A stretch of DNA of 64,000 bases, from the NCBI RefSeq assembly GCF_023008165.1, contig NZ_JAKQZA010000009.1, forward strand, positions 62,001-126,000. Reading direction: 5' to 3'. Source of the stretch: Kordiimonas laminariae. GTDB lineage: Bacteria > Pseudomonadota > Alphaproteobacteria > Sphingomonadales > Kordiimonadaceae. Under the pieces are notes generated by a model that had not been told where the DNA came from, ran no database searches, and was given only the letters and a program-made list of their open reading frames with translations. Below are positions 33,303 to 36,921 of this stretch, in pieces; the stretch's first letter is position 1, and the number at the start of each line of letters is the position of its first letter. The position numbers and the translations under genes were made by a program.

Positions 33303-33803
33303 ATGACAATTACCCCGGAAGATTTTCGGCAGGGTATGCGCCGCCTTGGCGGAGCTGTAAATATCGTAACAACCGCACATAATGATGTGTTTGCTGGGCT
33401 TACCGCAACGGCTGTAACCTCGCTTTCCGCTGAACCTCCACGTTTGTTGGCTTGTATTAACCAAGCGGGCGCGACTTATGAGGCTATATCCAAGGGGCGC
33501 TGTCTCAGCGTTAATGTGCTTGGGGCAAAGCATAAAGAGCTTGCGATGAAATTTGCCGGGCTTGATGGCAGTCCGGAAACGGACCGTTTTTCGGAAGGGG
33601 AATGGTCTGTTGGGTGTGGAGGGGCGCCTCTGCTCAAAGATGCGCTTGTGAGCTTTGACTGCATTGTAGATAACATCATGGATGTTGGCAGCCACGGCAT
33701 TGTTATAGGGCTTATTCAGAATGTGGTTTTGAACGATACCTCTGTTAAAGACCCTTTGTGTTATTTAGACGGTGAATGGACCACGATGGTGCCCGTGGAA
33801 TAA
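33303..33803 (+). CDS. Flavin reductase family protein (FMN-binding split barrel)
   Basis: A 166-residue flavin-binding protein. FRQGMRRLGGAVNIVTTAHN at the N-terminus, GLTATAVTSLSAEPPRLLAC near residue 35, and GRCLSVNVLGAKHKEL near 65 are typical of the HpaC-like NAD(P)H:flavin oxidoreductases that supply reduced flavin to a monooxygenase. No partner oxygenase is nearby. The start at 33303 is chosen because GGAG lies 9 bases upstream and overlaps the in-frame ATG at 33288. Its place 62 bases after flgL is noteworthy; a flagellar role is unproven. Confidence 0.88.
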   Translation: MTITPEDFRQGMRRLGGAVNIVTTAHNDVFAGLTATAVTSLSAEPPRLLACINQAGATYEAISKGRCLSVNVLGAKHKELAMKFAGLDGSPETDRFSEGEWSVGCGGAPLLKDALVSFDCIVDNIMDVGSHGIVIGLIQNVVLNDTSVKDPLCYLDGEWTTMVPVE

Positions 33804-33876
33804 CATTTTTCCTCGATTTCCTCTTTCATATCTCTCTTTTGTAGCCTTTCAGTTAAGGCGGCTAAATCAATATGTT

Positions 33877-34021
33877 GACTCTCGGAATCTCCGCGAATCG
33901 ATATCTTGTGTTTAACCTGCGACTCGTGAACTTTCTTAGAGTCGAATCGAATAAAGTGTTGATTCTTTGTTAAGATTCCGTATTCTTAGGCTCAAGATTG
34001 GTCAGGCAAATGTACCGAGTC
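33877..34021. promoter_or_regulatory. Nine GANTC (CcrM) sites in 145 bases
   Basis: GANTC occurs at 33877, 33885, 33895, 33921, 33939, 33944, 33961, 33974 and 34017, in the leader of the DUF2336 gene. By chance one site per 256 bases is expected, so nine in 145 is about sixteen-fold enriched. In Caulobacter and many alphaproteobacteria GANTC is methylated by CcrM, and methylated sites are read by GcrA. The block is therefore a likely cell-cycle- or methylation-controlled promoter. Confidence 0.6.
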
Positions 34022-34062
34022 GCATAAAAAATAAGGCCGGACAGCCCTAAGGGAGATGACGG

Positions 34063-35181
34063 GTGGTCAGTAAAGAACTGCAAGATCTATTGATGCTTGC
34101 TCGGGAGAAATCTTCCGATGCACGTAATAGGCTTGTGGAGAATATTACAGACCTCTTCCTTACCGATCATGGGCGCTTAAGTGAACACGAGCGCGCTCTT
34201 ATGTCGGATATCCTTGGTAAACTTGTTACGCAGGTTGAGAAGGATATCCGCAAAGAGCTGGTAAATGCGCTTACCGTTACCGGTATTGAATTACCAGATA
34301 TTGTTACCATCCTTGCCAGTGATGAAATCGAGATTGCAAGACCTCTTCTTGAAAAGAGTGTGTTGTTGAAAGATCCTGATCTCATTGAAATTATTCGCAT
34401 GCGTACAGATGAACACCGTATGGCAATAGCTATGCGGGAAGATGTATCTGAAACCGTAAGTAATGCGCTTGTAGAATACGGGAGCGAGGATGTTGTTGAA
34501 ATGCTTCTGAATAATCATGACAGCACATTGTCAAAACGCGCTATGGAGTATTTGGTTGCCGAAAGCCGCCGAGTTGACCGTTTTCAAGAGCCACTTCTTG
34601 GGCGTACTGACCTTCCAGATGATCTGGCATATCGCATGTACTGGTGGGTATCTGCTGCTCTGAGGAAACAAATACTAAATGATTATGCGGTAGACCCAGT
34701 GATTTTCGAGCAAGCGGTGAAACGAGCCGCGAATAGCGCCATTATTGATCAAGGTGATGATCAAGGCGCTTATGTGCGTGCGCAGCGTCTGGTTCGCAAA
34801 ATGATGGAAAACGGTGAGCTTACAGTTCAGTTTCTTATCAATGCGCTTAGGCAGCAACGCGTAGCAATTTTTGTCGCTGGAATGGCTGAGCTTAGCGGCA
34901 TTAATTTCCGCACATCATGGCGTATTTTCTCTGATAAAGGTGGTGAAAGTTTTGCGATCCTTGCCAAAGCTGTTGGCGTGGACCGTAACCAATTCACATC
35001 AATATACTTACTTGTTGTACAGGCCCGGGAAGGGGGGGCTGTGAAATCCCCTGGGGTTCTAAAAGATATATTGGCACTCTTTGATAAAATTACTGAAGCA
35101 AATGCCAAAGGTGCTTTGCAGGTTTGGCAGCGTGATAGTGCCTATCAGGAAGCTATCGAAGAATTAGAAAAAGTGGGGTAG
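34063..35181 (+). CDS. DUF2336 family protein
   Basis: A 372-residue, mostly helical soluble protein in the alphaproteobacteria-restricted DUF2336 family. Repeated helical, HEAT-like units: LSEHERALMSDILGKLVTQV, ELPDIVTILASDEIEIARPL, then LNNHDSTLSKRAMEYLVAES and a C-terminal half with AIFVAGMAELSGINFRTSWR. No membrane segment or enzyme motif. The role is unknown; relatives are often near sensor kinases. The GTG start has GGGAG about 10 bases upstream. The histidine kinase follows 36 bases later on the same strand, suggesting one unit driven by the GANTC-rich leader. Confidence 0.85.
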   Translation: MVSKELQDLLMLAREKSSDARNRLVENITDLFLTDHGRLSEHERALMSDILGKLVTQVEKDIRKELVNALTVTGIELPDIVTILASDEIEIARPLLEKSVLLKDPDLIEIIRMRTDEHRMAIAMREDVSETVSNALVEYGSEDVVEMLLNNHDSTLSKRAMEYLVAESRRVDRFQEPLLGRTDLPDDLAYRMYWWVSAALRKQILNDYAVDPVIFEQAVKRAANSAIIDQGDDQGAYVRAQRLVRKMMENGELTVQFLINALRQQRVAIFVAGMAELSGINFRTSWRIFSDKGGESFAILAKAVGVDRNQFTSIYLLVVQAREGGAVKSPGVLKDILALFDKITEANAKGALQVWQRDSAYQEAIEELEKVG

Positions 35182-35217: not shown

Positions 35218-36921
35218 ATGGCAGAAAAACCTTTTCATGATCAAAAGATCGTAGACCTAGCAAACCACAGGGCTGACCCTGCGGACGGAGCTTTTGGCGC
35301 GTCCATTACACGTGGGCAAGAACATACCTTGGCGGCGAACGAGCAGGTGATGGACCTGTTGAGTCATATTTTGGTTGATGAAAGTTTGCCATTTTATGTA
35401 ACCGCGCTCGACGGTACGGTTCTACAGGTTAATGATTTTTATAAAAAACTCGATGAGGCCTTACGTGATGTAAGTTTGGCACCGGGGCAGGTTGAACATG
35501 TTGGCAAATACGCTGTTCCTTCACTGAAACCTGTTGTTGAAGATGTGCTGGCGAGTGATACAACAGTAAGATCTGAGGAAGTTGTTCATATTAATGGCCG
35601 TGAGCGTGTGTTCCTTGGCCGGCATTCTCCTATCCGCAATGAACGTAAAGAAATTATTGCAGTTGCAGGCACATACGAAGATGTAACTGTTCAAGTGCGA
35701 GGCATAGAAGAGGCGAATAAAACGCAGGCGCGTTTTCAGGATTTTGCCCGTGCGAGTTCTGACTGGTTTTTTGAATGTGATGATAATATGCGCATTCGCT
35801 CACTCTCTGATCGTTTCACAGCGATTGTAGGGCAACCAGCGAGCTTGTTTGTTGGTTCAAAGTTTGAACAATTCGGTCGGCTGGGCGAAAACCTTGATGG
35901 CCGTATCGACGGGCCTAAGGCTATTCAGTCACGCAAGCCGTTTCGCGAGCAGCTGTTTATTATCAATGAACCAAATGGATCGGAACTGAAGTTCCATCTT
36001 TCAGCAGTCCCTGTATTTGACCGGACAACCGGTGATTTCAGTGGTTACCGCGGTGTTGGTATGGATGTTACCAGCCGCTATGAACAGGTTGAAGAAGCGC
36101 GTGGCATTCGCGAAAACCTGGAAAGCTTGCTTGCTGAATTAACACGTAAAAATATGGCACTTGATATCGCGAGCGAGCAGGCGACAAGTGCGCTACGCGC
36201 GAAGAATGAATTTCTTGCTGCTATGAGCCATGAGCTCAGAACACCGCTTAATGCGATTATCGGTTTTGCTGAAGCGTTTGAACAGCAAACCTTTGGAAAG
36301 CTTGATGAAGCTTATATTGGTTATGCTAAAGATATCAGGAAATCTGGGCAGCATCTTTTGGGGCTTATTAACGATATTCTTGATGTTGCTGTTATTGAAA
36401 GCGGTGGCTTATCGCTGAAGATCGATGATCTTTCGCTTGATGTACTTATTGAAAAAGCTGTTCATATGAATATGGAAGCTGCACGCCAGAAGGGGCTGAA
36501 TATTGATGCCCTTGAGGTTGTTACAGAGGCTGTTGTACGGGCAGATGATCGCCGTTTGACCCAGATTTTGGTGAACCTGCTTTCCAATGCTGTGAAGTTT
36601 ACAAAAGAAGGCGGCTCAATTGGTATTAGCTTGTCTGAGGATAGTGTGAAGAAGCAGGTTGATATTACGGTGTGGGATACTGGTATTGGTATTTCTGCAA
36701 GTAACCTTGCGCATGTATTTGAAAAATTCCATCAGGTGAAAGACCATATTTATTCACGTTCTCAGGAAGGTACCGGCCTTGGTCTTCATATCTCTCGAGA
36801 GCTGGCACGTAAAATGGGTGGTGACCTGACAGTTGTTAGTGTGGAGGGCGAGGGGAGCCGTTTCACAGTAACTGTACCACTTGCCGATGGTGTATCTGCT
36901 GACGATCTGGACTTTATCTAA
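35218..36921 (+). CDS. PAS-domain sensor histidine kinase
   Basis: A 567-residue soluble kinase. Two PAS-like segments cover about residues 40-160 and 170-290; a coiled coil (TRKNMALDIASEQATSALRA) leads into HisKA with the phospho-acceptor H338 in AAMSHELRTPLNA. The ATPase shows N-box NLLSNAVKFTKEGG, G1 DTGIGIS, F-box FEKFHQV and G2 GTGLGLHI. No membrane segment or receiver domain. Likely reports cytoplasmic signals; its response regulator is not in this window. Domain style is like PleC/DivJ-related cell-cycle kinases, which would fit the GANTC-rich control region, but this is inference. Confidence 0.92.
   Translation: MAEKPFHDQKIVDLANHRADPADGAFGASITRGQEHTLAANEQVMDLLSHILVDESLPFYVTALDGTVLQVNDFYKKLDEALRDVSLAPGQVEHVGKYAVPSLKPVVEDVLASDTTVRSEEVVHINGRERVFLGRHSPIRNERKEIIAVAGTYEDVTVQVRGIEEANKTQARFQDFARASSDWFFECDDNMRIRSLSDRFTAIVGQPASLFVGSKFEQFGRLGENLDGRIDGPKAIQSRKPFREQLFIINEPNGSELKFHLSAVPVFDRTTGDFSGYRGVGMDVTSRYEQVEEARGIRENLESLLAELTRKNMALDIASEQATSALRAKNEFLAAMSHELRTPLNAIIGFAEAFEQQTFGKLDEAYIGYAKDIRKSGQHLLGLINDILDVAVIESGGLSLKIDDLSLDVLIEKAVHMNMEAARQKGLNIDALEVVTEAVVRADDRRLTQILVNLLSNAVKFTKEGGSIGISLSEDSVKKQVDITVWDTGIGISASNLAHVFEKFHQVKDHIYSRSQEGTGLGLHISRELARKMGGDLTVVSVEGEGSRFTVTVPLADGVSADDLDFI

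Follow-up and report, generated by a model that had tools for sequence, protein, structure and literature searches.

Nine GANTC sites ahead of a DUF2336-kinase gene pair in Kordiimonas laminariae: a possible promoter array of the GcrA/CcrM type

Introduction

The closest described systems are the GcrA/CcrM promoters of Caulobacter (ctrA P1, ftsZ and mipZ), in which, as a rule, few GANTC sites lie at or between the –35 and –10-like elements. Passages of the papers cited here describe how such sites work. GcrA was found to speed or stimulate open-complex formation at methylated promoters (PMC7403470). On fully methylated ctrAP1 of Caulobacter it covers –35 to +7, and on one hemimethylated form just ∼12 nt at the –35 region (PMC3667746). 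The ftsZ gene of Caulobacter is apparently most active when fully methylated (PMC3708114). Among cell-cycle start sites with a GANTC within 50 bp, 11 of 96 have more than one; start sites whose GANTC lies between –35 and –10 make up one timing class (PMC4287350). Conserved extended GANTC sites were scored across alphaproteobacterial orders in a survey of likely GcrA targets, which suggested ccrM as a likely core target; no DUF2336 gene was found named in the section consulted (PMC7987155).

Promoters with several GANTC sites are already known. The sequence-only reading of the DNA studied here had put methylation-sensing control at one or two sites per promoter, which understates the published range: four sites were described in P169 of Caulobacter, which is hypomethylated when MucR is present (PMC5172544), and near ctrA in Sphingomonadales and Caulobacterales the number can rise to five or six in 300 bp (PMC8116508). 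Several GANTC also lie in the promoter region of the repABC(Ch2)/ori2 module of Agrobacterium tumefaciens (three per region), where the work cited tested how GANTC and GcrA affect the operon (PMC11514494).

Here we describe an intergenic leader of Kordiimonas laminariae that resembles the Caulobacter promoters in the presence of CcrM-like and GcrA genes in the genome, in the retention of sites in the leaders of relatives, and perhaps in having GANTC placed at, or in between, putative –35 and –10-like elements. Unlike those promoters it carries nine sites per 145 bp, and its genes were not found named as targets. Compared with P169 it has about twice the sites, at conserved positions; the genome encodes MucR-family genes too, and shielding is described for P169 only (PMC5172544). 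In contrast to the replicon maintenance genes of repABC(Ch2)/ori2 (PMC11514494), signalling genes lie behind it. Notable here are the number of sites and their conservation throughout a family at one place per genome.

Results

The window, i.e. the whole stretch of 64,000 nucleotides that was analysed, had been claimed to hold nine GANTC sites in 33877–34021, and a recount bore out every coordinate (33877, 33885, 33895, 33921, 33939, 33944, 33961, 33974 and 34017). In total, 32 GANTC were found in the window, nine in these 145 bp and 23 across the remaining 63.9 kb. As 100 dinucleotide shuffles of the window gave a mean of 197 (sd 15), GANTC is strongly avoided. The chance expectation of about 0.6 sites proposed beforehand was too high: it was calculated to be 0.21 per 145 bp at the rate of non-coding DNA (1.48/kb), with a Poisson P(≥9) of 2 × 10–12, and 0.13 at genome density. 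The non-coding rate came from 400 GANTC in 270 kb of the part of the genome read, with any frame of at least 120 aa crudely regarded as coding. The strictest control was to shuffle the 259-bp intergenic region by itself; 20,000 dinucleotide shuffles gave a mean of 1.8 GANTC, and one of them got to nine.

The genome scan covered 2,648,862 of 3,647,539 bases (the window and 140 further stretches) and contained 2357 GANTC, or 0.89/kb. The density was 1.8-fold higher in non-coding (1.48/kb) than in coding DNA (0.82/kb), and in 1.25 Mb of the genome the remaining 15 XYNY'X'-type motifs occurred at 1.9–7.4/kb. Avoidance of GANTC together with enrichment in non-coding DNA has been described for CcrM-bearing Alphaproteobacteria in the cited part of PMC3973325. 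The leader array was the densest GANTC cluster, its nine sites per 145 bp being unmatched elsewhere in the bases read, and the claim that the cluster is exceptional was thus upheld by a 145-bp density count over 2.65 of 3.65 Mb. Against this, three motifs of the same type also attained nine or more per 145 bp in the first 1.25 Mb (GCNGC 12, ATNAT 10 and TANTA 9), but they are 3–7 times commoner than GANTC (2.8–6.3/kb vs 0.89/kb).

The runner-up was the likely oriC (L091:6612), with seven GANTC per 145 bp and 13 in 370 bp. The surrounding region, L091:6414–6926 (G000:C23:206414–206926), holds 15 chained GANTC and DnaA-box-like sequences, the GC skew changes sign there, and a hemE-like gene adjoins. 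The hemE neighbourhood marks Caulobacter-type chromosomal origins, and the region is a likely candidate for a chromosomal origin of this type. Several GANTC are also contained in the Caulobacter origin, according to the same part of PMC3973325. The third rank, with five GANTC per 145 bp each, was shared by L161:3757 and L163:9416; the latter lies within a 494-aa open frame, in which six GANTC were observed at L163:9362–9515 (five at most per 145 bp). The five sites at L161:3757–3837 (G000:C20:323757–323837) are located where the ccrM-like gene meets an rnhB-like gene, directly 5' of what is probably the true start of the former. Smaller groups were seen at L123:4420–4594 (five GANTC where primase-like and sigma70-like genes meet) and at L123:13166–13267 (four GANTC 5' of a greA-like gene), these genes being named by eye. 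GANTC triplets at identical offsets were found at two contig starts (L081:213–343 and L115:213–343), which may reflect a repeat at which the assembly broke.

Genes for both CcrM and GcrA had been looked for, and the objection that the genome might lack CcrM fell away. The CcrM-like gene (PF01555, 236 bits) follows the rnhB-like gene; its frame of 416 aa comprises the catalytic part plus an extension at the C-terminus, and the enzyme is called CcrM by likeness. The GcrA gene is a single frame that matched PF07750 in two places, at 78.1 and 73.5 bits. The genome also has two MucR-family genes. GANTC may be methylated in Kordiimonas laminariae.

The array is located in an intergenic leader (33804–34062, + strand, G+C 0.417) that is flanked by a flavin reductase-like gene and the DUF2336 gene and holds all nine sites. 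A DUF2336-kinase pair had been claimed behind it, and both genes are present, but in the reverse of the order given: the DUF2336 gene comes first (34063–35181, + strand; 372 aa, GTG start), and the gene of a PAS-HisKA-HATPase histidine kinase second (35218–36921, + strand; 567 aa), 36 bp behind. The two genes probably form one operon. The DUF2336 protein is a paralogue related to SpbR, a developmental regulator of Caulobacter mentioned in PMC12700997. It scored 173.6 bits on the SpbR model NF052659, below the cut-off of 400, and SpbR identity was dropped in view of a far higher score (452.6 bits, above the cut-off) of a second protein in the same genome (L178:4685–5803), whose gene has two GANTC in the 400 bp upstream. 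Nor was the kinase assigned to DivJ or PdhS, as its partial NCBIfam scores (152.2 of 1000 and 150.4 of 2000) were far under the cut-offs. The structural model of the DUF2336 protein was mostly helical, with a mean pLDDT of 58.7, a quality insufficient for fold searching. Seven DUF2336 matches were observed in the genome; leaders were read for five of these genes, and the array was present only at the copy in the window. Within the literature covered, full-text searches found no paper on DUF2336 and none on Kordiimonas together with CcrM; among the titles listed for Kordiimonas and methylation, none dealt with such an array.

To examine conservation, 83 loci including the window were surveyed, with DUF2336 orthologues from 36 named loci and further genomes, and GANTC sites were counted in the 400 bp 5' of each DUF2336 start. 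Many species are duplicated across records; the 83 loci gave 55 different proteins in the tree, from which the truncated L032 and L197 were excluded. With an array defined as at least four GANTC within 145 bp, it was found in all 26 rows of family f1 (identified as Kordiimonadaceae from the named members), in two of the four rows of family f2 and in none of the 25 others. This label needs three changes on the DUF2336 tree, compared with a mean of 18.8 for shuffled labels. Three of the 29 f1 genomes (G082, G090 and G099) had no orthologue at E ≤ 1e-60, and their leaders were not counted. Absence of the cluster from orthologous leaders had been named in advance as evidence against a functional array; it is absent from most other families, but present throughout the organism's own.

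The sister clade (six rows, four of them from f6 genomes and two from named loci) has the gene pair in the absence of the array (0/6), its leaders holding 0–2 GANTC per 145 bp; the Iodidimonas muriae protein (L034, identical to L213) belongs here. Thus, the pair can presumably function without the array. The kinase gene lies behind the DUF2336 gene in 33 of the 36 named loci, and the stretches of the other three (L029, L031 and L032) end too early. This distribution in the compared sequences indicates that the pair is older than the array.

The f1 leaders are otherwise hardly alignable, and their common parts are two modules. Module A (model R1; 33859–33918, + strand) is conserved in 21 aligned leaders, out of 23, after L019 and L026 were dropped as differently built. 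Module B (model R2; 33949–33991, + strand), which appears promoter-like, is conserved in 19, after L015 and L017, which have lost the sites s5 and s6, were dropped too. The consensus of most relatives reads CGAATCGC-WATAT-N-T(T/A)GACTC-N3-GAATC-N5-GATTCGATAT-N-T-N-GTG for module A and TAARGTGTTGATTC-N8-GAATC-N2-TATYCT for module B, with cores of fixed spacing in most f1 leaders (TTGACTC-N3-GAATC-N5-GATTCGATAT and TTGATTC-N8-GAATC-N2-TAT, respectively). Module A matched 25 of the 29 f1 genomes and occupied a single place in each (the paired rows in G011, G038 and G064 are both strands of one place), and module B gave a single match in the organism's own genome. Outside f1, one weak module A match was obtained in 118 other genomes of the order, under stricter filters that may miss weak matches.

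In the window, module A is without the first common site s1, and five of the six common sites are kept. Site s2 (GACTC, 33877–33881) overlaps the –35-like TTGACT (33875–33880), s3 (GAATC) follows at 33885–33889, and s4 (GAATC, 33895–33899; GATTC in 19 of the 21 rows) abuts the conserved GATAT (33900–33904), which might serve as a –10-like element. In module B, s5 (GATTC, 33961–33965) overlaps the –35-like TTGATT (33959–33964), and s6 (GATTC, 33974–33978) lies just 5' of the –10-like TATTCT (33981–33986). The promoter-like bases in the window are thus TTGACT-19-GATATC for module A and TTGATT, a 16-bp spacer and TATTCT for module B; in both modules a –35-like TTGANT overlaps a GANTC and the last GANTC abuts a –10-like stretch. 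Three extra sites (33921, 33939 and 33944, within 33921–33948) lie outside the common ones, as does the ninth, GAGTC (34017–34021). These four have the same offsets solely in the near-identical G004 (L203) and no clear counterpart in the others.

The conserved bases suggest that modules A and B are two, perhaps three, sigma70-like promoter units. As a consensus scan of 33750–34120 called neither module a promoter, with zero sigma70 promoters in all, it is conservation on which this assignment is based. A known RNA leader element was rejected, as Rfam gave zero matches up to E 1 in 33500–34500. No LexA-like and no DnaA-like motif was found at ≤1 mismatch in 33804–34062, LexA-like motifs numbering 58 in the window against 41 expected (1/100 shuffles as high). 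One CtrA-like match with one mismatch was found in the leader (33959–33973), and the window had 39 against 43 expected, i.e. no excess. A terminator-like stem with a T run was observed inside the leader at 34032–34049 on the – strand; it faces away from the DUF2336 gene, and by shuffling 0.2 such stems would be expected.

Sites s2, s3 and s4 are intact in all 21 aligned leaders, 19 of which were collected by a pattern requiring these sites; the N base differs in two rows at s3 and likewise in two at s4. Site s5 is intact in 19 of 19 aligned rows and s6 in 18 of 19. Over six sites and 21 leaders, 12 of 126 N-base cells and 11 of 504 cells of the fixed bases G, A, T and C deviated from the majority (Fisher P = 5e-4), a comparison biased by the pattern, which fixed G, A, T and C at s2–s4 in 19 of the 21 rows. 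For s1, s5 and s6 alone, which are free of this bias, the values were 7 of 63 and 11 of 252 (P = 0.06, not significant; related rows are not independent). These results suggest, short of proof, that the sites are kept methylatable. Nevertheless, roughly nine rows in ten share one N base, and the flanks GATAT, GTG and TAAGGTG come close to the sites in conservation, implying a constraint beyond methylation.

Several leaders reach high site numbers by other layouts. Per 145 bp, eight GANTC were counted in G034 (L211, whose protein is that of the named L019), six in G029 (L212), eight in G028 (L217, whose protein is that of L026) and seven in G001 (L219). G028 and G001 belong to f2, the remaining two rows of which have one and three. 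L212 matched both modules weakly and L211 module B only, and L217 and L219 matched neither at E ≤ 1; in L217, the module A spacings of 15 and 8 bp are still recognisable by eye.

A promoter code common to ccrM and the leader was also considered. The spacings of 13 and 15 bp upstream of ccrM recur in modules B and A, respectively, and TTGANTC-N8-GANTC was found in four cases in 2.65 Mb (the leader, upstream of ccrM, ahead of a uvrC-like gene and within a coding frame). Because two other spacings reach five cases, this was reduced to a hint. In G141 of family f5, eight GANTC were observed 5' of a ccrM-like gene (L206:1480–1637), where module A matched weakly on the other strand, in the direction of a divergent sulfotransferase-like gene (both genes named by eye). 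Its E value of 0.005 per genome corresponds to ∼0.8 chance matches over 147 genomes, so that module A in another family is likewise a hint only.

Discussion

We tentatively prefer the reading that the leader is a GcrA/CcrM-type promoter array with an extreme number of sites, ahead of the DUF2336-kinase operon, and hold it with slightly less than even confidence on the compared sequences. The GANTC palindromes would overlap the –35-like TTGACTC or TTGATTC and abut the –10-like GATTCGATAT or GAATC-N2-TAT, and CcrM would methylate the adenines of the array sites. GcrA on sigma70 RNA polymerase might then be held by many methylated sites together, presumably in a cooperative manner, and help open the weak promoters of the leader, so that the operon would be strongly expressed only while the region is methylated. 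Several methylated sites around two weak promoters would give more GcrA-polymerase occupancy and a sharper methylation dependence. Methylation of the sites, the promoters, binding of GcrA, cooperativity and timing are all predicted steps.

The sequence-only reading had proposed a methylation-density switch or timer. A density effect is plausible, because orthologous leaders have similar site numbers at different positions: 4–9 GANTC per 145 bp were found in several layouts. The stronger version, that the promoter was selected for the number of methylatable sites, not for their positions, so that several must be methylated before the operon fires, is doubtful. A timer based on long hemimethylation is disfavoured by the chromosomal position. 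In all five single-contig relatives the leader lies 1.3–1.55 Mb from hemE, about 76–86% of a half chromosome toward the terminus, as estimated from rounded genome sizes with hemE taken as the origin and the terminus assumed opposite. In Caulobacter, CcrM is active as S phase ends, according to the cited part of PMC8116508. If it does so here, the hemimethylated phase of a leader on the terminus side would be short, and activation by full methylation, as for ftsZ, would be favoured over that of ctrAP1. This suggests that the array is active mainly from the fully methylated state, not from a long hemimethylated one.

Alternatively, the modules could be the operators of a specific transcription factor, with a dimer on GAATC-N5-GATTC and TTGATTC-N8-GAATC, GANTC and methylation being incidental. 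A specific DNA-binding protein would explain why the flanks GATAT, GTG and TAAGGTG and the N base are conserved, and the modules do occur at one place per genome. Against incidental GANTC, changes fall more on the N base, by which a site stays methylatable; as the P value free of bias is 0.06 (5e-4 otherwise), the operator explanation was weighed slightly higher and the promoter reading slightly lower. Moreover, L217, L219 and L211 reach many GANTC by different layouts, four GANTC of the window lie outside the common sites, and the leader has no LexA- or DnaA-like match at ≤1 mismatch and a lone CtrA-like match at chance level window-wide. We regard such operators as unlikely, but as the main rival to the promoter reading.

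A competition of the MucR type is rather improbable. Here, a DNA-binding protein would shield the array from CcrM, and local hypomethylation would accompany expression control. The two MucR-family genes of the genome fit this, as does P169 of Caulobacter with its four GANTC, hypomethylated with MucR in the cited part of PMC5172544; shielding, however, needs no fixed GANTC spacing around –35/–10-like bases.

There is a slim chance that the array is an origin-like or sequestration element acting via hemimethylated DNA after fork passage, or that it titrates GcrA or CcrM. The GATC clusters of E. coli oriC and dnaA act through hemimethylated DNA after the fork has passed, and the next densest GANTC cluster of the part of the genome read, 13 in 370 bp, is the likely oriC. 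That region shares a dense array with the leader, but differs in its DnaA-box-like sequences, hemE-like neighbour and GC-skew switch and in its lower density (seven per 145 bp). At 33.9 kb the skew switch is absent, zero DnaA-box matches (≤1 mismatch) were found in the leader, and hemE is not adjacent but, in 5/5 single-contig relatives, far away, by which a replication origin at the leader was rejected; the f6 clade, furthermore, lacks the array yet keeps the gene pair.

A chance or neutral cluster, in spite of the one intergenic shuffle in 20,000 that reached nine sites, has negligible probability and was ruled out by conservation of the array in the orthologous leaders over the whole family.

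The number of methylated sites that a bacterial promoter reads, and their possible summing, are hard to test with one or two sites. The leader described here, a possible GcrA/CcrM-type array, offers a natural series, with 4–9 sites per 145 bp, common modules, rearranged versions, and f6 relatives with 0–2. Judged from these comparisons, the DUF2336-kinase operon is a new candidate target of GcrA/CcrM control, and the SpbR-related DUF2336 protein and the kinase are candidates for a methylation-controlled programme of the Kordiimonadaceae.
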